Positions 1,957 through 29,290 of a DNA stretch of 64,000 nt are shown in pieces. Numbering within the stretch: the first letter of the stretch is position 1; each line of letters opens with the position of its first letter. The DNA comes from Arenicola marina. Taxonomy: Eukaryota > Annelida > Polychaeta > Arenicolidae. Location: positions 26,768,352-26,832,351 of the forward strand of contig OZ025257.1 in NCBI GenBank assembly GCA_964019135.1. The letters are read 5' to 3'. The notes under the pieces were generated by a model, which worked only from the letters and a program-made list of their open reading frames with translations, ran no database searches and had not been told where the DNA came from. Both the position numbers and the translations under genes were made by a program.

Positions 1957-3682
1957 TTACTAGCGGAATTGGATCAGACGGTCATGATCTTTCGCAGTTT
2001 TGCACATAATTTACCTCGAAAACTGGTCTTGCGGGACAGCACGCTTCACATGAAGTTTTTTGTTTGGATTCGGAAAGTCGTTATTGTTAAGGAGACGAGC
2101 TAATAGATACCACTGGAGTGCCACACACATCAGCAGCTGTGGCTCATTTATATTCAACATGCTACAATATTCCATGTCATGTTATGGTCATGTCAAGTCT
2201 GGTTATGTTCATGCGACATGCCAGCAGCAAGCCATGTAATCATACTCACTCGAGCTAGGCGAGAGCTGATCTAAAGGCCATGACTGCTAATTAAACGGCC
2301 TCCCTCGGAAGGCGTCGGGAGACCAGCGAAAGACGATGTCACGGTGCAAGAGTCCGACTGGAAACAAACGTTCTTTTTCTGGCAGTACGTGAAACCGACT
2401 GGCTCCAAATGGCGTGTGTGCCAGAGTGATTGTTTACCGTTAAGCACCCTTGTAATCAAACTCATGATTACTTTCGCTTTCGTCATATAAATTGTAATGG
2501 CACCCACGGTTATATATATCGAAGTTATGTTAGGTATGTAATTAGATACAGTGCTAGATATTCAATATAAGCTTAATCTGCAGGTTATGGCTGAGTCCCA
2601 GTTGCCCATATCGTAAGCCACTCGGGTGGTTATTGCTCATACAGTTAACACCCCATTAACAGTGGGTCCGCGGATATGTCGGCGCGTTAAAGCCCATCAT
2701 TTTACAACTTCGAAATTCCCGAGTTGATGGTATTGCCCTCCTTCTCATTGCGCTATGTCATCGAGTGAAGGAGGAAGACAATATTCCGAGATGAGTTTTG
2801 CGGTATAAAATGGCGGCCGTGTCTGTAAGGTTAATCGCGATGAACACTTACAGCACATCGTTGTGTGTCAGGGTGGGGGGAGTGGGAGCGTGGTGTCTGA
2901 AGGGGTACGGGGGTGCCACAGCGAGAATGTCACATGGGTCATTTCATGTCAGGTGCTCGAGGGGAAAATCGTCGCTGGGAACGCCAGTAATATCCTAAAC
3001 AAACATGTCTCGGTATTGGTTCGGTACTTGCACCGTGTGTTAACTCGATCACGACCAGATAGGAGTCCACAGCTAACACCCATGGGTGAGAGGTGTTCTA
3101 AAACTGATGACGATGAGGGAGGGGTACTCTAAAATTGACGATGACAGGGCATGTAAAAACGATAAAAAAGCCAGCGTCATTATTCCCGCATTATTACGTG
3201 GCATGTGTTGACACCAATATGTGCGTAATACTCAACGCGTCGCCAACAGTCGATACTTTGTAGTTATGTCAAGGGTGTACCATATATACACGTCTTTCGT
3301 ATATATCCCTCCATGCCATGCCAGGACCACCAAATAACCTACTCCCCAACCCTTTGTCTTGTAGCCCACCCCACCATCAGCCCTATATATATGCCTCGTA
3401 TCTCTCATTTATCACTGTGCACTCGGTCATTCAAACGCGCACCCCATAACACCTTCATTCCCGGTCCAACTCACCCCTGACCTCTGTCCGCCGACTCCTT
3501 CCCGCCCTCTGACAGTCACCCTAAGGCCCACCCACCGACAACCCACCCCCTTCCCCCACCACCTCTAACACCCTCCTCGGTTTGATGGTTCTTGCTCCAT
3601 GCCGTCGGCGGAAGAGCAAATGAGACAAACAACGTCCGCCTCGGGGTCCCGGATCGCGGTGTTTGGCTGCGGTGCAGGGCGT

Positions 3683-3723
3683 CACGTGGTCTATCCCGGC
3701 AGTCACCGCAAGAAGGTCACGTG
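3683..3723. promoter_or_regulatory. Paired CACGTG E-box motifs in U repeat
   Basis: Two palindromic CACGTG hexamers lie at 3683-3688 and 3718-3723, 35 bp start to start. The same pair with the same spacing is kept in both reversed U copies (17994-17999 with 18029-18034; 28826-28831 with 28861-28866). In the + copy at 12678-12683 only the first remains, because the sequence after it is deleted. CACGTG is the canonical bHLH (Myc/USF/CLOCK type) site. Whether it functions here is inference. Confidence 0.35.
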
Positions 3724-4658
3724 TCTGGCCCCCCCCATAATGCGTGGGTCGAGTCGAGTCGGCCGGTCTCCCAAGCATGTCTCCGTCACACCTCATGGTC
3801 GGCCTCGCTTAATCACGCCCTAGCCTAATTGGTCCTTGAAGGGGGCGCCTCCTACTGTTAGATCTTCCCGCAGAGCGACAAGGTTGATTGGTGACCGGAC
3901 GCCGGCCGCCAAATGAAGTGAGGTGACCGAGCTCCGCTGGGCAGCGACTGATGGCCCATCGCTCCTAATGGAGCCAGGCCGGGCGGACTGTCTCAGCTCT
4001 TAGCACACCAACAAATAGCTGACCGGGGCGGGGCGGGGCGGCTGGAAGCCCCAATCCGCTGGAGGCAGAACGTCTTCATCAGTGGCTCTGACCCTCTCAC
4101 ACATGTTTATTGAGTCACATCGCATCCAGATTTTCAATCTGTACACTGTAGACCCGAGACACTTAGGGAGGACCATTCCCCGCTCAATTGCCTTCTCTGG
4201 AATTCAGTTTTCTGCATTCATACAGGTGGACTTTCCTACCCTAAAACCGTGTGCAATGATGTGTGGCGGAACTTCATGGCGTTCACGGAAGGCGTATATC
4301 TTGGATATCTTTGATAAATCTCGCCAGTTATTTTCTTGTCAATAACAGAGATCTATATAGTGTAGACCATTTTTGAAAGAAGATACATCAACTCAGTGAC
4401 CCCTTCACACCTTGGTGTGCTTATAAACGTCGGGCAAGGAAGACACCGACCTCTAAGACGCCATCTGGAAGTTATTTTTGAATAGCTGTACCATGTATCA
4501 CTCTCACGCGTTATCTGTTTGGACGCATTTAAACAGTAACCCCCATGCATGCCACCGCGATGTTGTGGAACTGTACTCGCTCGACAGAGGTCTCAAAGGA
4601 AATTGCAAGTCAGACGCTTTTCCATATCAGAAGAGAATTAATTGTCAGTGGCCAGGGC

Positions 4659-4665
4659 TATATAA
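4659..4665 (+). promoter_or_regulatory. Conserved TATA-box-like element in U repeat
   Basis: TATATAA sits in a 'gggctatataacc' context, followed by GC-rich sequence. It is kept at 13268-13274 (+) and 27915-27921 (- strand), and is degraded in the fragment near 36926. Recurrence in separate copies makes a core promoter plausible. No transcript or coding frame is supported downstream. Confidence 0.3.
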
Positions 4666-7053
4666 CCAACTGTCGCCCTGGGCACCTCTCGCACCCTACG
4701 CGGCCAGTCGACCCTGCCACCCAGTTTAAAACAATTTGTCCCATTAGGGGCGCAGCTTAATTACCCCCTAGGGGGCACCGTGGTCCAGGCAGCTATATCG
4801 ACCTCATGCACGGAATGTCCGTTGGCTGTACTTGAAGGACTGGTGCCCTGGCTCGAGCCGTGAGTCAATCTCCCCCACCAGACTGCATCGTAAAGTGACG
4901 ACACCGGACCCGCTGGGGGAAGCCATATACTAGGGTACTAAATACAGAAACAGTTGTCCAATCTGCCGACCGCAGTAAGGTATGGTCCGAATTATGGGAC
5001 AGTCTGTCCAGACACCCAGAGGCCGACCCATGGGGAAAGACATGAACCGGACCATAAACAGTACAGATAAAATGGAAATATATAAGACATTGAGGATAAA
5101 TAACGGGTGATTTCATAGCGCAGTATGATCAATGCAGAATATTTTGCAGAATATATGATCAATAAGTTTTGTGTGTTTTCCATTACGAATGACTTCCTTC
5201 CGGCCAGTCAAATGGCACATGTATGCCGCTTGCTCTGTCTCTATGGCAACAAGGCTCATCCATAAGGTCATCTGGACTTCAGGGGGCAGAACACTAGGAC
5301 GTTTGATCGCCTATGTCAGCCCCACCCATTGCCAAATGATAGCTAACGTATTACTCATTCATCGTTTTTAGTCACAATGCAAAAATCCACCTTGTGGGCC
5401 ATGATGGACCGCTGCCAACATGTCACACGCTGATTAAAACCTTTAAATTTCTAAATGATATCTGATAAATATTAGTACATGTTGTCACATACTGAGACGT
5501 GTTATATCATTTCATTCAGCACTTTTGACAGGTCAGTGTGATTGGATGACCCTGCCTTACCCATCTCACCTGCATACGCCCGACGCTACAGCAATATAAT
5601 CGCGATTAGACATACAATATAAGGTTTATGTCTTATTACACGTATATATAAGTGGCAGATTGTGGGATTGAATAACGTCTCGTGAGAACGCTGCGAATAG
5701 TGCTCAGTCCAGCTGAGTTCGGCCGTCTGTCACTCCTTCGATTTCTACATGCACGACTCAGCGGTACAGTGCTCTGGCCGCCTACAAAAGCGTACCATTC
5801 CACCTCGATGGTGGCGGGGAAGAGGGGGTTACAGAAGTATGAATGAATGGAGGAGAGTGTAGGGCGGTGATATTTATATTTTGTCTCGAAATCTGTTTGA
5901 TCTTACTTGAAGAAATAAGGAAAGTTTCTTTCGTCACCCACGGGGTGTGGAAACTATTGTTTCGGACAATTGAACAGATTATCGGCGCAGGATCAAAACA
6001 TTAATTCACGTGAAAAACGGAAGGTACCCGTGCCTTTGGGCCATTGCCCTAGCCCCACACCCGCCTCAGCCAGCATATTTCCCTGTGGAATGACCAGTCC
6101 GGTAGCTGCACGACAGACGTGATCAAACGTCTTAAATCCCGGCTTACAATTGTTAATACTGTAATGCGCCAGTCAGCGCTATAAGGCTTTGATCCTGGCA
6201 GACACAAAGCGTGTTCTCGTCTCCCGGGAGACACTGGCGTGGCGAGATGTAGGGAGACATGGGAGTGGCAACTGGCCAGTCGTGTCAACTGTCCCCGAGC
6301 CTTTGTGCGCATGTCTCTCCGTCTGATGATCAACGTGATATGTCGGGAATAGAAAAAAGGGAATGCTAAGGCGATACTTATTTAATTATCATGATTAACC
6401 TTGTCAAGGGCAAGGCAAGTCCATTGCGGCGAGGTGGCGGTGTCGGGTATTCGGGGAGTCTTTAGTCTTGAGAGAATTGAATGGTGTTTAAGAGACGTCC
6501 GGGGTCCAAGCCGCATTGTCCCACCGTGTGCGCCCCACTCCGTGGGCCGACAACGCAGGACAAAGTACTAGGAAACACGGGGTCCGACAGAAAGACAGAC
6601 AGAAAGATGTAAATTCAAACTCCCTCAGATATGTCGCCATCTTTGTCCTCTTTCACACCTATCACTCTTTCTTTGTCACCTTTCTTTCCTCTGTGTCTCT
6701 GACCGAAAGAACAAGATCGTTGTCGAATTAAATCAATATCAATTCCACTCCCTACGCATTGCCCTGTGCGGCACCGGGAAGTGATAGCGTCTACTTTGGT
6801 ACAATAAACAAGACGGATACGAGGTCAATTTTACTCTGAATGCCAATGTACGACCAGAAACAATACCCTGTGCTTCGGTCTGACGGTGGTCGGCACCGAC
6901 GACAAGATGGCCGTCGTTTGTTGTATCCGCGTGGGTTGCCCGTATGTCCACGTGCGTCTATCTCTGACGTCATCAGATCGATTCAGTTAGAGTTGCTGCT
7001 GGTGTAGTGGACGCGAAAAGGGTCTAAACGGCGCCTTAAAGCCCATAAATAGG

Positions 7054-7232
7054 AATGGAATGTTGGTGTTTTAGGCCACTTTTGTGCACATACAGGCTAA
7101 ATTGGGCCAAGGAACCTCCCGAGACGATGAAGGAATAAAACATGCCTCAGATTAGGTGCCCGAGCCCGGATTCGAACCCAGGACCTATTGATCTGCGGTC
7201 TAGTGCGCTAACCACTACACCAGGGAGGCCCC
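7054..7232 (-). mobile_element. tRNA-derived SINE (family 1), inserted in U repeat
   Basis: On the minus strand the element starts with a tRNA-like head (7157-7230). It has RNA polymerase III box A (TGGTGTAGTGG, complement of 7212-7222) and a near-perfect box B (GGTTCGAATCC, complement of 7168-7178), followed by a tRNA-unrelated body and a short tail ending in an ATTCC-type repeat. A perfect 12-bp target-site duplication, CCCATAAATAGG, flanks it (7042-7053 and 7233-7244). The paralogous U copies show the empty site near 10437-10450 and 15759-15772. A second, nearly identical copy is at 23805-23995. The tail is not poly(A), so its mobilising partner was probably a CR1/L2-like LINE rather than the Tx1-like LINE at 30.8-35.3 kb (inference). 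Confidence 0.9.
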
Positions 7233-7326
7233 CCCATAAATAGGTACTCACTAGCTGCTACAACTATCTTTACCATCCATGGGTTAACCCCACTGTTAGA
7301 TATACCGTGTCATAAGAATATATACT

Positions 7327-7455
7327 ATAGAAAGTAATCTAGCATACGCAAAATAGTAGTTATAATTATGTACCATCAACGTGCTATACCACCTGCGTGT
7401 ACCATATTTCTCTTTGTAAATAAACTTTAAAAAAATAAAAAATAAAAAAAATAAA
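7327..7455 (+). mobile_element. Short 5'-truncated retro-insert with A-rich tail
   Basis: This block is absent from the paralogous U site near 15838-15848. It ends with 'tttgtaaataaactttaaaaaaa' followed by A-runs broken by T, like a LINE or other retrotranscript 3' end with an AATAAA signal. A duplicated 'atatatact' flanks it (about 7318-7326 and 7459-7467), consistent with target-primed reverse transcription. It is too short to assign a family, and its 3' end does not match the LINE at 30826-35300. Confidence 0.6.
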
Positions 7456-8136
7456 AATATATATACTGGCGGGTTAAGTACACGGGGCAGTCAATGGGTT
7501 ACACGAGGTCTGCATGGAAGCTAGGACCGCCCAGCTATATATCTAAACGACCCTCTTGCTGGTTTACGGTCCTCGTCATTGCTTCCCTGTCCATTCCCGT
7601 TCGTTCTCTGTTTCTAGCGGTGTTCCTCGTTCTGTCTGCTCGTCAAGGTAATCCTCGCTCTCCTCGCCCACAGCCACATTTATTTTCACCGCCGATTGCA
7701 AGCACCTACGGCCTCCAAGGCAACATGTCAGCATTCCTCGAAATGCATGTTTTGCTTTTGTGATTCCTGTTGTGCATGATTCTTGTCCCGTATTGTGACT
7801 AGATCACGTGACCTAGAGCGGCCAATGTGCGTGTTTCATCCATGGTCTCCTTCATACCTTCGCGCTAAATTAATTTCGATGGCGCAATTCCCCTACTCTT
7901 TGCGATAAAGTTCATTCATACGCTCAGACTGTCTCGCTGTTTTGAACACTACCTATCAAACCAATCTCAGAAAGGAACTCACCGACAGAGGGCGCTGACA
8001 CGGCTATCGCGACAGCACGATTGAGGTGCAGTTTTGCTTTCACATGTTTGGGATGTCATTATTGTTATGGGAACGGACTTATATGGGAAGGAGCTTGTAG
8101 ATACTTTGGGCTTGCCACACAAATCAGTAGCGGAGT

Positions 8137-8450
8137 GGTCAGGGTCGGGATCGGTGGTTGTGGCCTAGATTGGTGTGGGAGGCCGTGGCCCGAGTCGGGG
8201 TCGGTGGGAGTGGTTTTGCTTGGGGTCGGTGGGGGTGACCCGGGTCCAGTTGGGAGGCAGTGGTCCAGGTCGGGAAGCCATGGAGTGGTCTGTGGGTTGG
8301 TGTCGTTGACAGTGTTCCGGGTCGAGGTAGGAGGCAGTGGTCCGATTCGGGGTGGGTCTGAGTGGTACGGGTCGGGGTGGAATGGGGTGCTCTGGAGGTC
8401 GTTGTCAGTGGCAGTGTTTCAGGTCGGGGTGGGAGGGATTGGACCACTCT
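8137..8450. repeat. G-rich degenerate minisatellite (about 30-bp unit)
   Basis: Imperfect repetitions of a 'ggtcggggtgggaggcagtgg'-like unit run through this stretch. The + strand is strongly G-rich with many GGG/GGGG tracts, so quadruplex formation is possible. The open frame across it (glycine/valine-rich, to 8467) is a by-product of composition, not a supported gene. It starts where the U repeat homology stops. Confidence 0.6.
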
Positions 8451-8460
8451 TGGGTATCTT

Positions 8461-8640
8461 GGTCTGAGTGAACGAGCGCCTTGCTGGTGAACGCTAGTGA
8501 ATGGTCAGTGAGACCAAGTATGGCTGGACAAAATTTAAAAAAAAACTGGATGAAAAAAAAATGGCGATAGGTGGGGTTGAACCAGTCCCAGGTTGATCTG
8601 CAGTCGAGCTCTCAACCCCTCGACCAAGGCGGGAAACTAC
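8461..8640 (-). mobile_element. tRNA-derived SINE (family 2), minus-strand copy
   Basis: Read on the minus strand, the head lies at about 8634-8573, with box A (TGGTCGAGGGG, complement of 8616-8626) and box B (GGTTCAACCCC, complement of 8573-8583). An A/T-rich linker follows, then a 3' domain at 8517-8461. The 3' domain matches that of the plus-strand copy at 8951-9007 in inverted orientation, with about 10 differences in 57 bp. It is a different family from the SINEs at 7054 and 23805. Confidence 0.65.
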
Positions 8641-8844
8641 GTTAGTGACGTGAAATTTAGGCACTAGTTGCATATACACGTCTGTTTGCCACAGTATTTC
8701 CTTCCGTACGAGCATCATTGGACACGCATTATATATACGGTTATCCCATGTAGGTTCTCTCGCAATGATTTTTTTCTCTCTACTTTATGTGGCAATTAAC
8801 GGGACTGGGTGAGATGTCCAGATATATTTCACCCACGGCACTCT

Positions 8845-9012
8845 CCACCAGAAGCCGCCGTGGTCGAGAGGTAACGCACTCGACTTTAAACCAATAGGTT
8901 GCGGGTTCAAATCCCACCCCTGTCTAGGGTCATATTTACTCAAATCATCATTGGTCTCATTGACCGTTCACAAGCGTTCACCAGAGAGGTGCCTGTTCAT
9001 TCAGACCAAGCG
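8845..9012 (+). mobile_element. tRNA-derived SINE (family 2), plus-strand copy
   Basis: The tRNA-like head at 8854-8924 has box A TGGTCGAGAGG (8861-8871) and box B GGTTCAAATCC (8904-8914). The 3' domain at 8951-9007 is shared, inverted, with 8461-8517. The two copies are head to head, about 200 bp apart, and a through-transcript could fold into a hairpin. The body runs directly into the 39-bp minisatellite. Confidence 0.65.
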
Positions 9013-9044
9013 AAACACGCCGGAATATGAGTCACCGGGTTCCC

Positions 9045-10105
9045 AGCAGACGGACGACACCAGCCGGAAGAAGACGAGTTCCCGGGAGACGGACGACACC
9101 AGCCGGAAGAAGACGAGTTACCCGGAGACGGACGACACCAGCAGGAAGAAGACGAGTTCTCGGGAAGAGTTCCCGGGAGACGGACGACACCAGCCGGAAG
9201 AAGACGAGTTCCGGGGAGACGAACGACACCAGTCAGAAGAAGACGAGTTCTCGGACGACACCAGCCGGAAGAAGACGAGTTCCAGGGAGACGGACGACAC
9301 CAGCCGGAAGAAGACGAGTTACCGGGAGACGGACGACACCAGCAGGAAGAAGACGAGTTCCCGGGAGACGGACGACACCAGTCAGAAGAAGACGAGTTTC
9401 TGAGAGACGGACGACACCAGCCGGAAGAAAACGAGTTACCGGGAGACGGACGACACCAGTCAGAAGAAGACGAGTTCCTGAGAGACGGACGACACCAGCC
9501 GGAAGAAAACGAGTTCCCGGGAGACGACTGACACCAGCCAGAAGAAGAACAGTTCCCCGGAGACCGAAGACACCAGCCGGAAGGAGGATAGTTTTCGAGG
9601 ACACTAGCCGCCAACCAGAAGAAGAAAACAAGGCACCAGCCGAAAGACGAACAGTTCCCAGGAGACCGACGACACCAACACCAGCAGGAAGAAGAGGAGT
9701 TCAGGAAACAAGATACCGGCCAGAAAAAGAGGATGTCCCAGGAGACAGACGAAACCTGCCGGAAGGAGGAGAGTTACCGAGGCACAAGAAACCAGCCGGG
9801 AGAAAAGGGGGTCTCCGGAAACCGACGATACCTGCGGGAAGGAGGAAAGTTCGCGCAGACACAAGCCGCCAGCCAGAAGAAGAGTTTGCAGGAGACCGAC
9901 GACGCCAGCCAGAATAAAAGGGGGTCCGAGGAGACTGACGACACCAGCCAGAAGAAAAATAGTTCATAGGAGACCGAAGACACCAGCCGCATGAAGAAGA
10001 ATTCTCGCGGACACAACAGACCAGCCGGAAGAAGAAGAGTTCCCAGGAGACCGACGGCACCAACACCAGCCGAAGGCAGAAGACTTCCTGCGGACACAAG
10101 ACACC
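9045..10105. repeat. 39-bp minisatellite, regular then degenerate
   Basis: A 39-bp unit containing 'gacgacaccagccggaagaa' is repeated about a dozen times at 9045-9540 and then decays to about 10105. Because 39 is 13 codons and the unit lacks stops, several frames on both strands stay open. They give 13-residue periodic peptides such as RETDDTSRKKTSS or NSSSSGWCRPSPG. A real low-complexity protein cannot be excluded, since an AATAAA (10205-10210) follows. However, no start context, signal peptide or splice structure is visible, and the frames shift with unit-length changes. Confidence 0.85.
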
Positions 10106-10204
10106 TTCAGAACTGACCTTCTCTCGCAAGACGCTTTTTTCCAGTCTTCCGGACAATAGCTTGTTGACCAGTCTCTTGCGGAAGCAATAATGCTACTGTC
10201 GTCT

Positions 10205-10210
10205 AATAAA
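10205..10210 (+). terminator. Possible polyadenylation signal after the 39-bp minisatellite
   Basis: AATAAA followed by 'cgtgttttatgag' lies about 100 bp downstream of the degenerate minisatellite and just before U homology resumes at about 10218. It could be the 3' end of whatever unit carried the minisatellite. A chance hexamer is equally possible. Confidence 0.2.
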
Positions 10211-10217
10211 CGTGTTT

Positions 10218-13200
10218 TATGAGGGTAACTCTGCATAATAATGTTCGACCAGGAACCCTGTGTTTCGGTTTGACGGCGGGTCTCACCGCAGACAAGCAGC
10301 GTATCGACCGTTGTCCAAGCCTCCGTGTGGGTTGCCCGTATGTCCACGTGCGTCTATCTCGGACGGCATCAGATCGATTCCGTCACAGTGGCCGCTGGTG
10401 TCGTAGAAGCAAAATGTGTTTAAACGGCTCGTTAAAGCCCATAAACAGGTACCCATAAACTAGCTCCTACAACTATCTTTACCATCCATGATGGCATCAC
10501 CCTTGAGTATATTGCGTCTTTACACTATTTACTGGCGGGTTAAGTACACGTCCATTAATGAGTCACACGAGGTCTGCATGGGGGCTAAGGCCGTACAGCT
10601 GGAGACCTAAACTACCCTCTTGCTGCTGTACTTTCCTAGTCATTGCCCCTTCCTGTGTTTTTCAGTGAAGGGCGGTGTCAATCGGTTTGTCAACTTGTCA
10701 CCCTAAGTGTTCCTCTATCCGTCCACCAACACTTTCACTTTCAGCACCAATTGCAAGCACCAGCGGCCTTCAAAGAAATGTTCACGTAGAGATGTCACGT
10801 CGGCCAACCTCGAAATGCATTTTTCGCTTTGTGTGTCCATTGTGAAGGACTCTTATCACGTGATGTGACCCGGTCACGCGATCGACCAAGGACAATACGT
10901 GGCCATCATCCATAGTGTCCTTCATTGCTGTTCGCCAGATAGACTCGATTGCGTAATCTATCGACCCCCACGTCATTACTAGCGGAGTTGGTTCAGACGC
11001 TCATGATCTTTCGCAGTTTTGCGCATAACTTACCCCGAAAACTGGTCTTGCGGGACAGCAAGCTTCACATGAATTTTTTTGTTTGGATTCGGAAAGTTGT
11101 TATTGTTAAGGGGATGAGCTAATAGATACCACTGGGGTGCCACACACATCAGCAGCTGTGGCTCATTTATATTCAACATGCTACAATATTCCATGTCAGA
11201 GTCTGGTTATGTTCATGCGACATGCCAGCAGCAACCATGCAATCATTCTCACTCGAGCTGGGCGAGAGCTGATCTAAAGGCCATGACTGCTAATTAAACG
11301 GCCTCCCTCGGAAGGCTCTCTGCGGTGATAAATGCGTCGGGAGACTAGCGAAAGACGATGTCACGGTACAAGACTCCGACTGGAACCAAATGTTCTTTTT
11401 CTGGCAGTACGTGAAACCGACTGCCTCCAAATGTCGTGTGTGCCAGAGTGATAGTTTACCGTTAAGCACCCTTATAATCGAACTCATGATTACTTTCGCT
11501 TTCGTCATATAAATTATAATGTTATGTTAGGTATGTAATTAGATACAGTGCTAGATATTCAATATAAGCTTAATCTGCAGGTTATGGCTGAGTCCCAGTT
11601 GCCCATATCGTAAGCCTCTCGGGTGGTTATTGCTCATGCAGTTAACACCCCATTAACAGTGGGTCCGCGGATATGTCGGCGCGTTAAACCCCATCATTGT
11701 ACAACTTCGAAATTCCCGAGTTGATGGTATTGCCCTCCTTCTCATTGCGCTATGTCATCGAGGGAAGGACGGAGACAATATTCCGAGATGAGTTTTGCGG
11801 TATAAAATGGCGGCCGTGTCTGTAAGGTTAATCGCGATGAACACTTACAGCACATCGTTGTGTGTCAGGGTGGGGGGAGTGGGGGAGTGGTGTCTAAAGG
11901 GGTACGGGGGTACAACAGCCAGAATATCACATGGGTCATTTCATTTCAGGTGCTCAAGGGGAAAATCGTCGCTGGGAACGCCAGTAATATCCTAAACAAA
12001 CATGTCTCGGTATTGGTTCGCTACTTGCACCGTGTGTGACTCGATCACGACCAGATAAGAGTCCACAGCTAACGCCGATGGGTGAGAGGTGTTCTAAAAC
12101 TGATGACGATGAGGGAGGGGTACTCTAAAATTGACGATGACAGGGTATGTAAAAACGATAAAAAAGCCAGCGTCATTATTCCCGCATTATTACGTGGCAT
12201 GTGTTGACACCAATATGTGCGTAATACTCAACGCGTCGCCAACAGTCGATACTTTGTAGTTATGTTAAGGGTGTACCATATATACACATCTTTCGTATAT
12301 ATCCCTCCATGCCATGCCCGGACCACCAAATAACCTACTCCACAACCCTTTGTCTTGTAGCCCACCCCACCATCAGCCCTATATATATGCCTCGTATCTC
12401 TCATTTATCACTGTGCACTCGGTCATTCAAACGCTCACCCCATAACACCTTCGTTCCCGGTCCAACTCACCCCTGACCTCTGTCCGCCGAATCCTTCCCG
12501 CCCTCTGACAGTCACCCTAAGGCCCACCCACCGACAACCCACCCCTTCCCCCACCACCCCTAACACCCTCCCCGGTTTGATGGTTCTTGCTCCATGCTGT
12601 CGGCGGAAGAGCAAATGAGACAAACAACGTCCGCCTCGGGGTCCCGGATCGCCGTGTTTGGCTGCGGTGCAGGGCGTCACGTGGTCTATCCCGGCAGTCA
12701 CCGCGAGAGGGTCACTGATGGCCCATCGCTCCTAATGGAGCCAGGCCAGGCGGACTGTCTCAGCTCTTAGCACACCAACAAATAGCTGACTGGGGCGGGG
12801 CGGCTGGAAGCCCCATTTCCGCTGGAGGCAGGACGTCTTCATCAGTGGCTCGGACCCTCTCACACATGTTTATTCAGTCACATCTCCTCCAGACTTTCAA
12901 TCTTTACATAATAGACCATTCAATTCCCCGTCCTTTGTCTTCCCTCAAAATCGGTTCTCTGCATTCATACTCAGTTAGACCTGAATGCCTTAAAGCCGTG
13001 CGGAAGTATGTGTGGCTTAACTCCATGGCGTTGATGGAAGACTATTTTGTCCATCTTTGATAAATCTCGCCAGCTATGTTCTTGTCAATAACATGGATCT
13101 GTATAGCACAGTCCATGTTTGAAGGATAACACATCGACTCGGGGACCTATTGACACCTTGGTGTGCTTTCGAACTTCGGGCCAGAGAGACACTGACCTGT

Positions 13201-16200: not shown

Positions 16201-16630
16201 CGTCCAATGCGCGTCTATCATCCACGGTTTCCTTAATAGCGTCGCGCCAAATGAATTTCGATTGCGCAATCCCCCTACTCTAGGCGATAAAGTTTATTCA
16301 TACGCTCAGACTGTCTCGCTGTTTTGAACATTATCTATCAAATCAATCTCAGAAATGGACTTACCGGCAGAGGGCGTGTTATCGTTATTGTTACTGGAAC
16401 GGGCGTATATGGGGACGAGCTCATAGATACTTTGGGCAGGCCACACAATTAAATAGCCGCGGCTTATCTATATTCAACATGCTGCAAGATTCCATTTCTG
16501 ACGGAGTCTCGTTATGTTCTTCCGACATGCCAGCAGCAAGCCATGCCACCATGCCCAATCGAGCTCGGTGAGGGACGCTCCAAAGTGGCCAATGAAAGCC
16601 ATTGACGATGTCACAGTAAACCAGGCAGAC
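10218..16630 (+). repeat. U repeat, + strand copy 2
   Basis: It begins inside the unit (matching about 6830 onward), reaches the 'ggcgggttaagtacacgg' block (about 10530) and continues without a break into the start of the next unit at about 10980. It then runs through all landmarks to about 16330 and restarts at about 16380-16630. This shows directly that U units abut head to tail. Compared with copy 1 it lacks the SINE and the retro-insert. It also lacks the second CACGTG and the sequence up to the 'ctgatggcccatcgctcc' block (deletion near 12714), and parts of the 4330-4640 block. The unit length without insertions is about 5.3 kb. Confidence 0.8.
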
Positions 16631-16634
16631 CTCC

Positions 16635-17190: not shown

Positions 17191-20100
17191 AACTGATATA
17201 TAACGCAGCTTATTGAAAAATATGTTTTTAAGATGGCGTCTTGGAAGACGCGAATAGGTGTCAGTATCATTGGAACCGGATGTTTGAAAGAAGACCGGGG
17301 CGCGAAGTGGTAATTGGGTCTATTTATGCCGCTTCAAGCCTGGCCCATATACATCTTGTCACAAAGACAGTAGCAAGAGATTCATCAACATAATCTTCAT
17401 TAGCATATGTCTCCCATAGACGCCATTGCGGTAGCCGACAACATCCCTCGTCGGGATATGACACCCAGGTCCAGCTGCATATCTCCTGAATGGCAAGCAG
17501 CACATAACAGGAGAAAACAATGAACGGGGAATGGTCCCCCGTGAATGTCTCTGGTCTATTATGTAAAAGTCCAAAGTCAGGAAGTGATGTGACTGAATAA
17601 ACAAGTGTCAGAGTGTCAGAGCCACTGATGAAGACGTCCTGCCTCCAGCGGAATGAGGCCTCCAGCCGCCCACTCCGCCCGGCCCATCCCCAGTCAGCTA
17701 TTTGTTGGTGTGCTAAGAGCTGACACAGTCCGCCCGGCCTGGATCCATTAGGAGCGATGGGCCATCAGTTGCTGCCCAGCGGAGCTCGGCCACCTCACTT
17801 CATTTGGCGGCCGGCGTCCGGTCACCAATCAATGACCTTGTCGCTCTGCGGTAGGATCTAACAGTAGGAGGCGCCCCCTTCAAGGACCAATTAGGCTCGG
17901 CCGTGATGAATCGAGGCCGACCATGAGGTGTGACGGAGACATGCTTGGGGAGCCGGCCGACTCGACTCGTCCCACGCATCACAGGGGCCCAGACACGTGC
18001 CCTTCTCGCGGTGACTGGTGAGATAGACCACGTGACGCCCTGCACCGCAGCCAAACACGGCGACCCGGGCCCCCGAGGCGGAAGCTGTTTGCCTCATTTG
18101 CTCCTCCGCCGACGGTATGGGGCAAGGACCATCATACCGGGGATGTTGGTAGGGATTGTAAGGTTGGGCGGGAAGGAGTCGGCGGTCAGGGATGAGTTGG
18201 CCTAGGGAGGAAGGTGTTATGGGGTGCACGTTTGAATGACCGAGTGCACAGTTATAAATGAAAGATATGAGACATACCAACACGTTGGCATCTGCATTAG
18301 GTGGCCACTAAGTCTTTTCAGACCGAGGCTGACCGGAACCGGAAAGACAAGTTTTTGCCGGTCAGTCCTGTGAGGGTGAACACATAAACGGCTCGGTGGG
18401 AGAGGGGGGGGGGGGGGTGGCTGGACTGATGGTTGGGCGGGGTACGAGACGAGTAGTACGAGTAGTGGGTTATTTGGTGGTCCTGGCATGGCATAGAGGG
18501 ATATATACGAAAGGTGTGTAATGATGGTACACCCTTAACATAGCTACAAAGTACCGATTTCTGACGACACTTGGTCCGAACACATATCACATAAACATAC
18601 GGGAATACTGACACTGGCACTAATATGACCCCCCACCCCCCTCGCCCATTACTGTTCAACAATATTAGGCTATAAAGCCTGGATGTCTCTTACCCTCTCT
18701 CGCCATATCCTTTTTTATCGTTTTTTTTTCACGGCCTGTCATCGTCAGTTTTAGAGTACCCTTCCCAACTCCTCATTCCTATCGTGTCGCGATCCAGTCA
18801 GATACGGGGCACATAGCGAACCAATATCGAGACACTTTTGATTATTATATTACTAGCGTTTCCAGCGACGATTTTCCCTTAAGCACCTATGAAATGACCC
18901 ATGTGACATTCTCGCTGTGGTACCCGGTAGCCCTTCAACCACCTCGCATCCATCCCCCAACCTCACACATACAATTCGATCTGTTGTAAGTATTCATCAC
19001 GATTAACCTTACAGACATGTCGGTCATTTTATACCGCAAAACTCAGGTTTTAGAATAGTCCCTCCCTCTTTTCCTCCGCGACATTGTTCAATGGGAAGAA
19101 AGAAAAATAGAAGCAATGCGGGAATTTCAAAGTATCTATTATGTACTATGCTGGGTTTTAACGTGCAGACCTCTCCACCGACCCACTGTTAATGGGGTGT
19201 TAACTCCATCAGGAATAACCACCAGAGAGGCGGTAGGAGACGGCCAACGGGGACTCAGCAATAACGGAATCGGCCCAATGTAACGGCGTTTGTTACGATG
19301 TACTGTGCTATTTCGTTTATTCCACTTCAAGCCATAGCCTGCAGATTAAGCTTACATTGAATATCTAGCACTGTATATAACCATGGGTATAATAATAATT
19401 TATATGGCGGAAGTGAAAGCAATAACGAGTTCGATTACAAGAGTACTTAACGGTAAACATTCATCCTGGCACACACTCGACATTATAGGCAGTCACCCAC
19501 GGACATTAGTTTAACATATTGCCGACAAAAATACTCGAGATTTGCTTTGACTTCCTGATTGGCGGTCAACTTGGTTTACCGTGACATCGTCAAAGACTTT
19601 CGCTGGTCTCCCATGGCATTTATCACCGCAGAGTGCCCTCCGCGGGAGGTCGTTTAATTAGCAGTCATCGTTTGTAGAGCGACCCACGCCCAGCTCGAAT
19701 GGGAATGATTGCATGGCTTGCTGCTGGCATTTCGCATGAACATAACCAGACTCAGAGATGGAATCTTGTAGCATGCTGCATATAAATAAGCCACGGCTAC
19801 TGATCTGTGTGGCACGCCAGAAGTATCCATAAGCTCGCCTTCTAACAATAACGACTTCCCGAAGTGCATGCGAAACTTTATGTGAAGCGTGCTGTCTCCG
19901 CAAGACCAGTTTCCGAGGTAAATTATGTGCAAAAACCGTGTCAGAGATTCGTCGCTTGTAATGACCTGGGGATCGATGGATTACGCAATCGAAGTTCATC
20001 AGGCGAATGGAAATGCAGAAAACTATCGAAGATAAACAGGGATCGTCCGCGGTCTATTACGTGATCGAGTCTTACATCACGTGATACGAGCCCTTCACAA

Positions 20101-23100
20101 TTGGAAGCACAAAGCGGTGAAAATAAAAATGGTGGTTTACGGATAGAGAGAAAATAACCCTTACAAGTGGACAAAACGAATGAAACCGCCAGTCACTGAG
20201 AACACCATGAAGGGTCAGGGAGGGAGACAATGACAAGGAAAGTAAAGCCGCAAGAGGGTAGTTTAGGTCTCTTGCTTGCGGCATTAGCTCCCATGCAGAC
20301 CTCGTGTGACCCTTTGATTTCCCCGTGAATTTGACGCGCCGGTAAATATTCCACAGACGCAGTATCTTCAAGGGTGGGGTCTTCCCATGGATGGTAAAGT
20401 TGTGGCAGCTATTGGGTAGCTATTCATGGGCCTTAAGGCGCCGTGTAAACGCATTTTGCTTCCACCACGCCAGCGGCCACTGGGACGGGATCGATCTGAT
20501 GACGTCAGAGATAGACGCACGTGGACATCCGGGCAACACGCGCGGACACAACAAACGACCACCGTCAGACCGAAACAAAGGGCTTTGTTTCTGGTCGTAC
20601 ACTGTTACTAAGCGTAAAACTCACGTCGTGTCCGTCGTGTTTATTGTGCGAAGTAGACGTTATTGCTTTTCAAAACCGCAAAGGGCAATGCATAGAATTA
20701 AATAATGTTGATGTATTACGACAACGACTTTGCTTTTTTTTCGGAAGTGGTTTTGTTTTAATCCAGTCTCTTCATATTTTGCTTTCTGGTTAAGGCCTAG
20801 CTGCTCCGAAGACCGTACTGTAATCAGATTTCTGTTACTGGGCCGATATGAAGTCAGAGAGACAGTAGAAGATGAAAAGTAGCAGAGAAAGAACGATAGA
20901 TGTGAAAAACGAGAAAGATGGCGAGATCTGTAGGGGCTGGGACTATAATATGACGGATAAATATATGTGCAAAACCTTAGGAGAGAGAAAAAGATGACAT
21001 ATGGAGTGTGCAGGTATGAGAGATGCAGGAGAGGAGCGCTAGAAGAACAGCTAAAGTAGAGGCAAAACTAACTCTCCTTTCCGTCAGACCCCGTGTAGTC
21101 GTATCCTTTGGTCTGGTTTACAATGCCGTTAATATTCTTCATTTTACATTTTTTCATTTTTTTTCATTTTGCTTGACTTCATTTAAGTCCTTATTACCAG
21201 TAATAGCTCTTTGGAAAACTTAAACCTAGCGCAATGCAGGACTGATATTAACAATTGTAAATTGTGACCATAAAAATAACAGAATGGTAATAAAGTGCAA
21301 TACTGCAAAACCAGGACAGCTTTTATCCAAATTCTAAATCACTACCTTAAACAAATTGGCTGTAATTTCACCCAAAATGAAAATCTTGACGCCAACCGAC
21401 TTTTGAAAACTTCTACAAACATAGTTCTTGTACTAACAAGTTAAAAAAATAATAGGAGCCTCGCAAATATTCCTAGAAACAGTTCCTGAAGCTTGAAAAT
21501 GGTATGTCACAAATATTTCTCGGCACAGCTTATTTCACACCAATTATCAGTAATTTATGCTTCGTATTCACACTATAATAATTCTGGTTATACCCGACAC
21601 CGCCACCTCGCGGCGATCGCCCTACCTTGCCCTTGACAAGGTTAATCATGAGAATTAAATAAGTATCGCCTTTACATTCCCTGTTTCTATTCCGGGCACA
21701 TCAGGTTGATTATCAGGCGAAGACGCATGCGCACAAAGGAGCCTCGGGGACAGTTGGCATTGCCTCACGACTGGCCAGTCGACACTTCCATATCTCGCTA
21801 CATCTCGCCACGTCACATGACAACATGGGCTTCGTGCCTCTCCTCCTGTTTGTGCCCCCGCCACCCCTTGCCCAGCAGCCTCCCGACACCCTCCCCCTGG
21901 AAGACGAGAACTGGCAATATGTCTACTATGGTCAAAGCCTTAAAGCGTTAACTGGCGAATTACTAGCTAAGCATTAACAATTGTAGGCCGTGGTTTAACA
22001 CGTCTGATCACGTCTGTCGTGCAGCTACGGGACGGGCCATTTCACAAGGAAAGATGGCGGCTGAGGCGAGTGTGGGGCTAGCTGGGGCAATGGCGCAAAG
22101 GCAAGGGTGTGTTCTGTTTTGTCTTGTGAATTAATTTTTTGATCCTGCGCCAATGCTCCGTTCAAATATCTGAAAGAATAGCTTCAACTCCGTGGGTGAC
22201 AAAAGAAAGTGTCCTTATTTCTTTAAGTAAGACCAAAGCAAAACATAAATATCACCGCCCTAGACTCTCCTCTATTCATACCCCCTCCGCCAAGCCACCA
22301 CTGAAGTGGAATGGTAGGCTTGTCTAGGCGACAAGCCCACTGTACCGTTGAGTCGTGCTTTCGAGCCAGACTAAGCACTATTCGCAACGTTCTCCAAGAC
22401 GTTATTCGGCCCCGCAACCTGCTAGTTATATATAAGTGTAACACGACATCAACCTTTTATTGTATCTCTAATCACGATTATTGCTGTGGTATTTACCAGG
22501 CGTATGCAAGTGAGGTGACCTGTCAAAGCGCTGAATGAACTGATACAACACGTCTCAGTGTGTGACAACTTGTAGTTGTTACACGTATTTATGTGATATA
22601 ATTTAGGCATTTAATGGTTTTAATCAGCGGGTAAACAGGTAAACAGGATAACGGTTAACAGGGTTCGGTTCATTATGGCCCACAAAATTGATCATCATCT
22701 TGTCAGTACAAATGATGAGTAATACGTGCGCTATGCTTTGCAAATGGGTGGAGACATGGGGGATCAAACGTCTTGGTGTTCTGCCCCCGGACATCTAGGT
22801 GATCGTATGGCAGAGCTCTTGTTACCGAGACAGAGCAAGGTACATACATGCGCCATTCGCTTGGCCGGGAGGAGGTCATTCTTTATGGAAAACACAAAAA
22901 CACAACTTATTAATCATATACAATGCAAAATACTCTGCATCGATCATACGGCGTGGCATAATATATCGTTATGTATCCTCAATTTTGTATTTATTCTCAT
23001 TTTATCTGCACTTTTTATGGCCCGGTTCATGTCTTTCCCCAAGGGTCGACCTCTGGGCGTCTGGACAGACCGTCCCATAACTCGGACCATACCTTACTGC

Positions 23101-23322
23101 GGTCGGTACATTGGACAACTGTTCTGTATTTAGTACACCAGTATATGGCGGCTCTCGGCAGGCCCAGTGGCGTCACTTTACGACGCCGTCTGGTAAGGGA
23201 GATTGTCTCACGGATCGAGCCAGGGCACCAGTCCTTCAAGTACAGCCAACGGACATTCCGAGCGTGAGGTCGACATAGCTGCCTGGGCCACAGCGCCCTC
23301 TAGGGGTCAATTTAATCAAATT
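17187..23322 (-). repeat. U repeat, - strand copies (inner part)
   Basis: Read on the minus strand from 23322 downward, the sequence matches U from the block after the TATA element (copy 1 about 4780) through to about 7900. It then continues directly into a new unit (start block near 19930) and on to about copy-1 position 4490 at 17187. Tandem order is therefore preserved in inverted orientation. Differences include an extra short block near 18290-18410, shared with the outer copy at 29120-29290 but absent from + copies, so the two inverted copies share a subfamily-specific segment. Confidence 0.75.
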
Positions 23323-24835
23323 TATAACACTCCCTCATTCCCCCACTCCCCCACCCCCCCCCCATTCTTATCGATTCGCGATCTAGTCAGATACGGGGGC
23401 AAGTAGCAAACCAATATCGAGACACTTTCATTTAGGATGTTACTAGCGTTTCCAGGGATGACTTCCGCTTGAACGCCTATGAAATGACCCATGTAATATT
23501 CTCGCTGTGGTCCCCTCGTAACCCTTCAACCAGCAAGCCTCCACCCTCCACCCTCGCACACACAATTTGATGTGTTGTAAGTGTTCATCACGATTAAACT
23601 TACAGACACGTCGGTCACTTTATACCGCAAAAGTCATGTCGGAATATCCTTCCCTCCTTTCCTCCGCGACCATTGTTTCATGGGAAGGAAGAAAAATAAC
23701 ATCAATTCTGGGATTTCTACTACGTATCCACTATGATGGATTATAACGGGCCGACCTGTCTACCAACCCACTGTTGATGGGGGGTTAACTCCATCAGGAA
23801 TAAGGGGGCCTCCCTGGTGTAGTGGTTAGCGCACTAGACCGCAGATCAATAGGTCCTGGGTTCGAATCCGGGCTCGGGCACCTAATCTGGGGCATGTTTC
23901 ATTCCTTCATCCTTCATCGTCTCGGGAGGTTCCTTGGCCCAATTTAGCCTGTATGTGCACAAAAGTGGCCTAAAACACCAACATTCCATTCCATTCCATC
24001 AGGAATAAGCACCAGAGAGGCGGTAGGAGACGGCCGTTTGTTACAATTACTATGCTATTTCGTTAATTTCACTTCAGGCAATAGCCTGCAGATTAAGTTT
24101 ATATTGAATGTCTAGCTCTTTATATAATTACATTCCCAACATAATTCTCGCATATATAATCATGGGTACAATAATAATTTATATGGCGGAAGTGAAAAAA
24201 GCAATAATGGGTTCGATTACAAGGGTACTTACGGTAAACATTCACCCCGGCACACACGAGCTTTAGAGGCAGTCACCCACGGATAATAGTTTAACGTACT
24301 GCCGACTAACATACTTGCGATTTGGTTTGACTTCCCGATTGACGGTCAGCCTGGTTTACCGTGACATCATCAATGGCTTTCGCCGATCTCCCATCACATT
24401 TATCACCGCAGAATGCCTAATTTAATGGAGGCAGTTTAATTAGCAGTCATTGCTTGTAGAGCGACACACGCCTGGCTCGAGTGGGAATGATTGCATGGCT
24501 TGCTGCTGGCATGTCGCATGAACATAACCAGACTCAATCAGAGATAGAATCCGGTAGCATGTTGAATATAAATAAGCCACAGCTTCTGATTTGTGTGGCC
24601 CCCCGGAAGTATCTATTAGCTCGTCCCCTTAACAATAACGACTTCCCGAAGTACAAACAAAACTTCATGTGAAGCGTGCTGTCCCGCAAGGCCAGTTTCC
24701 GAGGTAAATTATGTGTAAAACCGCGAGATATTCTGAGCGTCTGAATGTACTTCGTCGCTTGTAATGACCTGGTGGGCGATAGGAATAACGAATCGACATT
24801 CACCGGGCAAATGCAATGTAGGAAATCACTCGCCT
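23323..24835 (-). repeat. U repeat, - strand copy, first third of the unit, with SINE inside
   Basis: It matches copy 1 about 1960 to 3060 on the minus strand. At about 23322 the homology jumps to copy-1 position about 4780, so some 1.7 kb of the unit is missing here. The junction lies beside a C-rich run (23340-23362). A family 1 SINE (23805-23995) interrupts it. Beyond 24835 the homology ends until about 25900. Confidence 0.7.
23805..23995 (+). mobile_element. tRNA-derived SINE (family 1), second copy
   Basis: The tRNA-like head at 23805-23880 has box A TGGTGTAGTGG (23815-23825) and a perfect box B GGTTCGAATCC (23859-23869). The body and an ATTCC-repeat tail follow. A perfect 14-bp duplication CCATCAGGAATAAG flanks it (23791-23804, 23996-24009). 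The paralogous U copy near 19207-19220 has the empty site. Head and body match the copy at 7054-7232 almost base for base, so the family spread fairly recently relative to the U duplications. Confidence 0.92.
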
Positions 24836-25899
24836 TATGCACATGCTGGGAATTCACACACAAACACGAAGCTATCTCTGCGTGTGTGCTGCGTTCGAAC
24901 GGCAAGTGCATATGGTGTGTGGCCCTGGTGTGTGGCACAAGGGCCTTTCTCATCTGCCGTCAATGGTCACTATTAAGTATGTCAGGTCATCATTTTGTAA
25001 CTAGATAACAAACAATAACCTATCGGGATTCCTCCATAGCAAGCCTATGCCTCAGCACGGGTGCCCTCCTGCAGCTAGGGGGATTCTCCGACCAGTAGTG
25101 GGATGCTATCGGTTCAACCGAGCTTATCTGCTTAGTTGGTGATAATTAAGGTTTATATGTTGATTGGTACATTGTAAAGCTAATGACAAATTTATCAAAC
25201 ATTATTGGTACATTTATCACAAATTTTGCAGGGAATGGTTGCTCGACACTGAAGCAGACGCATTGAAACACTAAACAAAATGTTGAAGGCGGCGTAGCTT
25301 AGTCGGTAGAGCGTTCGCGTTTTGGTAGGGTCAGGATTTTGCGTTCAATTCCCGAGGGGTGCAATTAAGTTTTTCGCTCTACTAAGTGCCAGAATCCACA
25401 TTCTTTGATAAAATTGTTCCTTCCTACGGTCATCACTGTTGTGAGATTAGTCTTGTGCATCTAGGCGTGAGCGACCGATTAGTTCATGCTCACAATACTC
25501 AATTGCCATTGCCTAATGGTAAAGAATGTACGGATCATAAGACTCACAATACTAAATAAAAATATAACTAATAAAAATAGCAGTAATAGGTACATAGAGT
25601 GAAGGGGGCTTTCATGTGAATTGACCCTTGTTGCCTGCCGCGGGAAATACCCGCCTTTTTCTAAATATACTCGCTCCAAAAGACCCTCCTTTTTCACATG
25701 TACTTGCACCAGAACACACACATCCTTTTTTATTACTGAGAACCCCCGTGAGCTATTTCGCAGCCAAACCTGCAGCAGTGTCTCTCATAAGATTTCACGC
25801 GTTGAACGAGTCACGCAGTTTGTGCTTGCAGGCCCAGTCTCGTTTTGGCGTCAATATGGCGATTATATAAATAAGGTGTTTGGAAGATACGCACTGACT
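24836..25899. other. Non-U sequence between inverted U segments
   Basis: This 1.06-kb block replaces the expected U sequence. It contains the tRNA-like element at 25289-25361. The 80-96 codon frames in it overlap on both strands and show no motifs. I see nothing else I can name. Confidence 0.4.
25289..25361 (+). tRNA. tRNA-like sequence (tRNA pseudogene or SINE head)
   Basis: It carries a box A, TAGCTTAGTCGG (25295-25306), and a box-B-like CGTTCAATTCC (25342-25352) about 47 bp downstream, as in a tRNA gene. The 5' 'gcggcgtag' does not pair well with the 3' '...ggggtgc', and the anticodon arm is irregular ('gcgttttggtagggtcagg'). A pseudogene or SINE head is therefore more likely than a working tRNA. 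The AT-rich sequence after it lacks a clear tail or duplication. Confidence 0.5.
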
Positions 25900-28800
25900 G
25901 TCCGTGATTGAGTCGCATCACGTAATAGTCCTTCACAACGGGAAGCATGAAGCAAAGAATGCATTCCGAGGTTGGCCGACGTAAAACTTCTACCATTTTT
26001 TTATGGCCGCGTGTGTTCGCAATTGGCAAAGTAAAATAAAAGTGGCGCTTTAAGGATAGAGAGAAAATTAACGTAAAGTGGACAAAACGAATGAAACCGC
26101 CAGACACTAAGAAAACAGCAACGGAACAGGCAGGCAAGGAAAAGGAAAGTAAAGCAGCAAGAGAGGAGTTTAGGTCTCTAGCTGTACGGCCTTAGCTACC
26201 ATGCAGACCTCGTGTGATCCATTGATTTTCCCGTTTACTTAACCCGCCTGTAAATATTCTAAAGACGAAATATGTTCAAGGGTGAGGCCATCCCTTGGAT
26301 GGTAAAGATAGTTGTAGCAGCCAGTGAGTACCTATTTATGAACTTTAACGCGCCGTTTCAACACGTTTTGTTTCCACGACGCTAGCGGCCACTGTGACGG
26401 AATCGATCTGATGACGTCAGAGATACATATATGGGGAACCCACGCGGAGACAACAAAGGAATGCCATCTTGTCGTCGGTGACGACCACCGTCAGACCGAA
26501 ACACAGGGCTTTGTTTCTGATCACGCATTGTTATTCAACGTAAAACTCTGGTCTTCTCCGTCTTGTTTATTGTACCAAAGTAGACGCTATCACTTCCCGG
26601 TGCCGCACAGGACAATGCGTAGGAAGTAGAATTTATATTGATATAATTCGACAAGGATCTTGTGTTTTTGAGTACGTTTTCTGACGTTGTCGCCCAAGCC
26701 TCTGGGCACCCAATGTTTGTTAACAGATCAAAGGGGGAGCAGACGGTGTGACAATGCTGCTTAGACCCCGGACGTCTCTTAAACACCATTCAATTCTCTC
26801 AAGGCCAAAGACTGGCCGAATACCAGACACTGCAACCTCGCCGCGATGGACTTGCCTTGCCCTTGACAAGGTTAATCATGATAATTAAATACGTTATCCG
26901 GGACGTTATTCAGTCCCACAACCTGCCACTTATATATACGTGTAACAAGACATGAACCGAATATTGTATCTCTAATCACTATTATTGCTATGGCATTTAC
27001 CAGGCGTATGCAGGTGAGGTAGGTAAGGTAGGATCATTCAATCACACTGACCTGTCAATGAACTGATATAACGCGTCTCAGTATGTGACAACATGTAGTT
27101 GTTACACATATTTATCTGATATAATTTAGGCATTTAAAGGTTTTAATCAGCGTGTAAAATGTTAACAGGAGTCCATCATGGCCCACAAATTGATCGCTTG
27201 TGAGCAAAACGATGAATGAGTAATAACGACAATGAGTGGTGACATGGGAGATCAAACGTCTTGGTGTTCTGCCCCCTGAATTCTAGGTGATCGTATGGCT
27301 GAGCCATATTACTATGGGGACAAAGCCAGCCGCATACATGTACCATTTGATTGGCCGGAAGGAAGTCATCCGTGATGGAAAACACACATAGCACGCCTTA
27401 TTGATCATATACATTGCAACATATATACATTGCAGACTCCGCATGGATCAGTCCGCGCTGTATAATATCTCGTTATTTATCCTCAATGTTTTATTTATTC
27501 CCATTTTATCTGTGCTTTTTATGGTCCAGTTCATGTCTTTCCCCAAGGGTCGACCTCTGGGTGTCTGGACAGACCGTCCCATAACTCAGACCATACCTTA
27601 CTGCGGTCGGTACATTGGACAACTGTTCTGTATTTAATACATCAGTATATGGCGGAACTTCCCCCAGCGGGTCCGGGTGGCGTCACTTTACAACGCCCTC
27701 TGGTGGGGGAGATTGTCTCACGCATCGAGCCAAGGCACCAGTCCTTCAAGTACAGCCAACGGACATTCCGTGAATGAGGCCGAATAGCTGCCTGGGCCAC
27801 AGCGCCCTCTAGGGGTCAATTTAGCGGCCCCCTTAAAGGGACAAATTGTTTTAAACTGGACGGCAGGGCCAACGGGCCGCGTGGGGTAAGAGAGGTGCCC
27901 GGGGCGGCAGCAGGTTATATAACCCTGGCGACTGGCCAAGCACTTCTCTTCTGATATGGAAACGTGTCTGACTTGCTGAACGCAATTTCCTTCTAGACCT
28001 AAGTCGAGTGAGTACAGTTCCACAACATTGCGGGGCCACTGTCCAACGGCGCCCAAACAGATAACACATTAGACTGATATATCGTACAGCTTATTCAAAA
28101 GTAACTTCCAGATGGCTTCTTAGAGGTCAGTGTTTCGCTAGCCCCACGTTCGAAAGCGCACCGAGGCGTGCAGACGTCTTCGAGTCGATGTATTATCCTT
28201 CAAACATGGATATATCCATGTTATTGAAGAAAATATCACGCGAGATTTATCAAAGCTGTCCAACATATGTGCCTTCAATCAAAGCAACACATCATTCCGC
28301 ACGGCTTTAAGGCATCAAGGTCCACCTGTGGATGAACGCAGAAAACGGATTCCCAGAGAAGGCAATGGACGCGGAATGGTCCCCCTGGAATGTCTCAGGT
28401 CTATTATGTGAAAGTCCAGAATCTGGATGTGATGTGACTGAATAAACATGTGTGAAAGGGTCAGAGCCACTGATGAAGACGTCTTGCCTCCAGCGGAATG
28501 GGGCTTCTAGCCCGCCCTTCTCCAGTCAGCTATTTGTTGGTGTGCTAAGAGCTGAGACAGTCCGCCCGGCCTGGCTCCATTAGGAGCGATGGGCCATCAG
28601 TCGCTGCCCAGCGGAGCTCGGCCACCTCACTTCATTTGGCGGCCGGCGTCCGGTCACCAATCAATGACCTTGTCGCTCTGCGGGAGGATCTAACTGTAGG
28701 AGGCGCCCCCTTCAAGGACCAATTAGGCTGGGCCGTGATGAATCGAGGCCGACCATGAGGTGTGACGGAGACATGCTTGGGGGGCCGGCGGACTCGACTC

Positions 28801-29290
28801 GACCCACGCATTATAGGGGTCCAGACACGTGACCTTCTTGCGGTGACTGCCGGGATAGACCACGTGACGCCCTGCACCGCAGCCAAAAACGGCGACCCGG
28901 GACCCCGAGGCGTAAGGTGTATGTCTCATTTGCTCTTCCGCCGTCGGGTACGGGGCAAGGACCATAATTCCCGGGGAGGGTGGTAGGGGTGGTGTGTGGG
29001 TGGGTGGGCTTCAGGGTGGCTGTCAGAGGGCGGGAAGGAATTGGCGGACAGAGGTCAGGGGTGAGTCCGGCCGGGGAGGTAGGTGTACTGGGGTCCCGCG
29101 TTTGAATGACCGGGTGATAAATGAGAGATACGAGGCATACCAGCACCTTGGCAGCCACCATCTTTCTGTATCAGATGGCCAGGTTCTCTTCGTGTTCCAT
29201 ATAGAGACTGGCTGGACTCGAAATGTTAAGAGTTTATTGGTTAGTCCTAGTGGGATGAACGGACAAAGGAGTCGGTAAGGTGGGTGATGG
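25900..29290 (-). repeat. U repeat, - strand copy (outer part)
   Basis: Read on the minus strand from 29290 downward, it matches U from about copy-1 position 3390 through the paired CACGTG motifs, the GC-rich block and TATATAA (27915-27921). It continues through 'gtcgacccatgggg' (about 27555) and 'aaccttgtcaagggcaagg' (about 26860) to about 7870. The block corresponding to 5690-6320 is deleted (jump near 26890-26920). The minisatellite at 29385 begins just outside. Confidence 0.75.

Follow-up and report, generated by a model that had tools for sequence, protein, structure and literature searches.

The window analysed here is a 64,000-nucleotide stretch of the Arenicola marina genome (contig C10, positions 26,768,352-26,832,351; the genome comprises 867 Mb in 762 contigs). 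It carries an array, here called U, whose unit of about 6 kb runs head to tail on the + strand from 1955 to 16585 and then, reversed, on the - strand from about 17205 to 29139, with the same order on both sides. The mitochondrial contig carries ND2, COX1 and COX2 in that order (ND2 and COX2 named by eye), and its COX1 reads through as a single open frame under the invertebrate code, as befits an invertebrate animal. To the window we added 100 kb of flank on each side, giving a 264-kb region; window coordinates are used throughout, negative numbers lying upstream. The layout was derived from a self-BLAST of the window and an ordered map, with copy c1 as the reference for unit coordinates. The pieces of U, placed by the ordered map unless otherwise stated, are as follows.

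-15404..-14631 and -1730..-1135, + strand: c0, a broken copy
1955-7994, + strand: c1, a complete copy and the unit reference (self-BLAST and ordered map)
10228-10925, + strand: c1b, a tail fragment (unit 6833-7855)
10974-16376, + strand: c2, a nearly complete copy without unit 3731-3947 and smaller pieces (self-BLAST and map)
16408-16585, + strand: c2b, the broken-off start of a further unit (unit 2088-2276)
17205-19934, - strand: m1, a partial copy (unit ~4489 down to 1998), weak over 17205-17510 (map and shuffle test)
20114-24766, - strand: m2, a partial copy (unit 7692 to 1955, with a gap at 3034-4759)
26081-29139, - strand: m3, a partial copy (unit 7636 to 3390)
35397-35867, - strand: f, a junction fragment (unit 7808-7997, then 2107-2291)
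36832-37614, + strand: c6, an outlying fragment (unit 4574-5356), 18-21% from other copies

On either strand of the ordered map, the last part of one unit (about 7.6-8.0 kb) runs into the first part of the next (about 1955-2100), which makes U a head-to-tail array with a change of orientation. A unit of more than 1 kb repeated in this way, with the same junction on both strands, is the arrangement of a macrosatellite. Unit length varies between 5.4 kb in c2 and 6.04 kb in c1, a figure that includes a short interspersed element (SINE) of 183 bp. The match of c2 is far beyond chance (2,686 bits, E=0); the weak tail of m1 scored 34, and the highest of 30 shuffles 25. The minus copies m1, m2 and m3 are all incomplete. 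The mirrored runs span 12-15 kb, and with its fragments U reaches from about -15.4 to 37.6 kb. A 532-bp direct duplication (1427-1958 and -1084..-553) borders c1 on the left; at 98.9% identity it is much younger than the U copies.

An earlier note, written from the bare sequence, had described tandem + units facing tandem - units with mirrored landmarks. The self-comparison bears this out, giving long ordered matches and not just short shared motifs. The note's differing centre phases (about 2260 and 4490) were measured as unit 2276 (window position 16585) and about 4489 (position 17205). Its limits of 1957-29290 hold for the core of the array, but not for the outer ends, as c0, f and c6 lie beyond them. 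A unit of about 6 kb is likewise correct, but a 6-kb spacing of c1 and c2 is not; their starts are about 9 kb apart because a dispersed element (8555-10107) and a partial unit intervene.

U is found at a single locus. The genome-wide search that the note had proposed, run with a 6,044-base U query, gave 79 matches, and all of those outside the SINE fall on C10 at 26.77-26.81 Mb. This is a lower bound, as 40 of 1,417 candidates were scored and very common words were skipped, and the search overlooked the upstream c0 fragments that the ordered map reveals. For an 801-base piece of U outside the SINE, all four candidates were scored, and the five matches are all at this locus. Within the reach of these searches, and apart from its SINE, U therefore has the restriction to one or few loci of a macrosatellite, and the copies at many loci that would mark a dispersed transposon were not seen.

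The copies are old and unevenly related. Across the 25 copy pairs with at least 300 shared columns, divergence is 5-23% (up to 23.1%). The closest pairs each lie within one strand: c0-c1b (5.1%), c1-c2 (8.6%) and m1-m3 (10.2%). Between c1 or c2 and m1, m2 or m3 it is 13.8-18.0%. A maximum-likelihood tree of eight copies separates {c1, c2, c6} from {m1, m2, m3, c0, c1b} with 99% bootstrap support; the finer branches are weak (61-67%), except c0-c1b (98%). Since the + strand pieces c0 and c1b cluster with the - strand copies, the + side looks like a repeated pair made of the tail of one type and the unit of the other: the c0 tail with c1, then the c1b tail with c2. The mirror-image pairing that a foldback predicts is absent among the copies, in agreement with the earlier note's doubt about a simple foldback, and U is neither a foldback nor a homogenised palindrome. 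The usual definition of a segmental duplication asks for 90% identity or better over 1 kb or longer; c1-c2 reaches this (91.4% over 4,926 columns), and the other pairs compared over more than 1 kb fall below 90%.

Divergence is also patchy along the unit in all nine pairs tested, with 0 to 12 of 500 shuffles attaining the observed variance. The positions of these patches are uncorrelated between independent pairs: pooled over 59 bins, rho is -0.03, and single segments range from -0.72 to 0.37 without reaching significance. This favours pair-specific exchange, which fits the patchiness better than shared constraint does. U is better preserved in two blocks: block 2 and, best of all, block 1 (unit 3731-3947). 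We considered these low-divergence blocks as conserved regulatory elements, but the independent-pair test gives that idea no support; block 1 lies outside the test because c2 is without it.

Several dispersed elements interrupt U.

7052-7234, - strand: 183-bp dispersed element within c1, a SINE (genome search and reading by eye)
8555-10107, + strand: element X, dispersed, with a 39-bp minisatellite (repeat and genome search)
16746-17191, + strand: dispersed fragment resembling the 3' end of a long interspersed element (LINE), at the orientation switch (genome and protein searches)

The 183-bp element occurs on many contigs, mostly at 98-99% identity. A 12-bp duplication brackets it in c1, the corresponding site in c2 is empty, and m2 carries its own copy at 23804-23992. 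Read by eye, the reverse complement of the element has promoter-box likenesses that suggest a tRNA-derived SINE. ARAGORN reported no tRNA in the window. Element X gave 130 matches with 40 of 308 candidates scored, and forms part of the repeat unit of W, a larger family present on other contigs. The fragment at the switch has at least 45 genome matches including the window's own (the best others 85-93% identical) and five unnamed protein relatives at 38-47% identity; its translation, judged by eye, reads as a probable LINE 3' end. Elsewhere in the window, 31364-35228 holds a LINE that encodes endonuclease, reverse transcriptase and zf-RVT domains in two overlapping frames; it is presumably L1/Tx1-like, and its best protein relative is 55% identical. 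Minisatellites lie at 29390-29826, 44478-44711, 46468-47083 and 60294-60704, with periods of 21, 17, 22 and 14/42 bp, respectively.

U does not stand alone. We encountered three further arrays, V, W and A, incidentally and not by random sampling. V is adjacent (47.9-127.6 kb), with units of about 6.9 kb in alternating runs: + to 69.3 kb, - at 69.8-85.2, + at 85.9-105.6, - at 106.1-122.8 and + at 123.2-127.6. It has a higher-order repeat of about 36.5 kb, and its long matches are 95-98% alike. V is also locus-specific, as the 47 matches to a 3,028-base piece all fall at C10:26.818-26.895 Mb (20 of 20 candidates scored). It contains 14-bp minisatellites and a possible coding window near 57.0 kb. 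Its mirrored layout does not figure in the earlier note's finding. A lies upstream, from about -100 to -43 kb; its listed duplications are direct and include a 13.5-kb copy at 98.7%. U, V and A are mutually unrelated in sequence, save for the SINE (U and A) and one 58-bp match (V and A).

W forms tandem arrays of 5.7-6.7 kb units on two other contigs (34 of 4,389 candidates scored), with tandem copies also on C2.

C17:7062500-7069500: W locus
C1:73310300-73318800: W locus

On C1, four - blocks are followed by five + blocks. On C17 all seven full copies are + and the left edge carries - strand fragments; the copies on C2 are -. Adjacent C17 units are 99.7% identical, C17 and C1 units 93%, and part of W also occurs outside arrays, as single pieces no longer than about 4 kb scattered over several contigs. 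A mirrored layout is thus shared by U, V and W on C1, while W on C17 and C2, like A, is essentially direct. The same mirrored layout in V and in W on C1 indicates that such rearrangement recurs.

We put the odds at roughly three in four that U is an old, single-locus array of an apparently non-coding unit of about 6 kb, produced by local tandem duplication with inversion and since decaying. Tandem copies would have arisen by unequal exchange or replication slippage. One segment would then have been inverted, either by template switching at a replication fork or by exchange between inverted copies, and the scar of this event may be the interval at 16.6-17.2 kb that holds the LINE-like fragment. 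Both sides would afterwards have duplicated further and exchanged sequence, and U may now be decaying without a needed function, as a degenerate macrosatellite does. The array is probably neutral. The map and the copy relationships support the earlier note's suggestion of an inverted duplication with deletion, or of joined array segments. In the surroundings, 40-kb slices starting from -20 to 92 kb, covering U and V, contain 28-88% locally duplicated sequence, compared with 0% in a single 40-kb control stretch of the same contig.

It is unlikely, in our judgement, that U is a functional macrosatellite, in which each unit would carry a regulatory block (a CTCF-like site and a G+C-rich block) and opposed runs of sites would organise chromatin, as is thought for mouse Dxz4. 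Several observations point that way. Blocks 1 and 2 are better kept, and a CTCF-like core with at most one mismatch is present in four of the five block 2 copies, in constant orientation within the unit. In size and divergence U is also like Dxz4, which likewise has few, diverged units (PMC3491370). The core used in these counts, CCASYAGRKGGCRS, is what we take to be the vertebrate-type motif. It occurs exactly 5,048 times genome-wide, about 20 times as often as its reversed control (254). This strongly points to CTCF being employed in this invertebrate, and its genome probably uses a vertebrate-like CTCF motif. In the 264-kb region there are 28 sites with at most one mismatch, whereas 300 permuted motifs averaged 3.1 (two of them reached 28) and 10 simulated sequences gave 0-6.

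However, the enrichment shrank to about 2-fold against the genome-wide density (44,284 such sites in 867 Mb, or 13.5 expected). Many of the 28 sites are repeat copies, and exact sites number 2 against 1.5 expected. Because its density is near background and repeat copies are among the sites, the CTCF-like motif in block 2 merits little weight. The lack of common constraint among independent pairs also weighs against a maintained function, as does the report that in an annelid the CTCF motif is the commonest in open chromatin and lies mostly at promoters rather than in an architectural role (PMC7854359). Separately, C1:2204346-2205609 holds a motif-bearing satellite with a 50-bp period, in which at least 15 exact cores are spaced by multiples of 50 bp.

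About as unlikely is the idea that U represents genes: a cluster that has decayed or evolves very fast, or a family coding for long non-coding RNAs. No Pfam domain was detected in six frames of 1957-5858 and 5801-10797. In block 2, the ratio of non-synonymous to synonymous differences (pN/pS) is 0.74-1.03, and stops interrupt all frames in all copies. In these scans U shows neither the conserved open frames nor the known domains of a protein-coding gene cluster, and its unit appears non-coding. No Rfam family reaches its gathering score, and nine of the ten weak matches fall on the minisatellite at 29.4-29.8 kb; the earlier note's statement that U resembles no known protein or RNA family accordingly stands, for Pfam and Rfam. 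A structured RNA was also considered, but consensus folding with a column-shuffle test was unconvincing (best z-scores of -3.64 among 40 windows in block 2 and -2.60 among 54 in block 1). A possible hairpin at about unit 5040-5115 in block 2, within the window of z -3.64, is kept in five copies and is unconvincing alone.

A bolder proposal, which we regard as improbable, is that a recurrent process in this genome builds mirrored super-arrays (U, V and W on C1) out of non-coding segments, each about 6-7 kb long, that are not related to one another. The super-arrays would be retained because they serve a structural purpose, their insulator-like sites being oriented and arranged in opposed runs. 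If true, the mirrored macrosatellite would be a general chromosome-organising design outside mammals.

An assembly error at the orientation switch is very unlikely. The dispersed fragment there could host a false join, but the two sides are 13.8-18.0% apart, well beyond allelic copies or a foldback read, and a switch of the same kind in V is present in two copies that are 95% alike. Still less probable is that U is a large palindrome maintained on a sex chromosome, in an amplicon or in an eliminated region, its arms kept alike by gene conversion. The earlier note had drawn this likeness, and the mirrored runs and a patchiness suggestive of some exchange are in its favour. Palindromes of sex chromosomes and amplicons share with U their large opposed arms, but those arms are nearly identical, whereas the larger opposite-strand copies of U have the divergence just given and the closest pairs lie within one strand. 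Finally, although the SINE, the LINE-like fragment and X are dispersed elements within the array, we give almost no credence to U itself as a transposable element inserted repeatedly in one place, as the genome search found it nowhere else among the candidates scored and the junction at which its copies abut, head to tail, is fixed.

The array has a wider bearing, as it shows that a mirrored tandem layout does not require youth or homogenisation. Within one 264-kb region U and V, whose units are unrelated, both lie in opposed runs, and a third family, W, does likewise on another contig. The process that flips segments of tandem arrays could therefore be compared at several ages within one genome, from 95-99.7% identity (W and the V higher-order copies) to about 77-95% (U). 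V resembles U in being a locus-specific unit in opposed runs, but its sequence is unrelated and it has the higher-order copy of about 36.5 kb. W resembles U in its tandem units of similar length, its mirrored arrangement on C1 and the absence of a Pfam domain in the 5 kb scanned (there was no Rfam match in the part scanned), but it does not match U itself, is partly dispersed and is much younger.

Among the titles listed by searches of the open-licence literature, none concerned mirrored large-unit arrays in an invertebrate, which is weak evidence of novelty. Template switching in yeast (the ODIRA model) yields inverted interstitial copies (PMC10766183), and so offers a route to adjacent copies in opposite orientation. 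The ODIRA junctions described there fall at short inverted repeats and are fresh events, whereas the scar in U is old and no such repeat was recognised at it. Primate macrosatellites have a high identity between units that U, at 5-23% divergence, does not share.

The nearest described array that we found is mouse Dxz4. According to the part of the report we draw on (PMC3491370), it occupies a single locus of about 36 kb, in which about 7 units, each 3.8-5.7 kb long, differ from one another by more than 5%, so that it too departs from the primate pattern; it has an internal minisatellite and no reported coding role, and it is transcribed and Ctcf-bound. U is like Dxz4 in its single locus, unit size and divergence. 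The two differ in that Dxz4 is drawn there as a tandem array without an orientation switch, whereas U is mirrored and more diverged, and in that Dxz4 is known to be transcribed and bound by Ctcf, whereas U is described here from its sequence.

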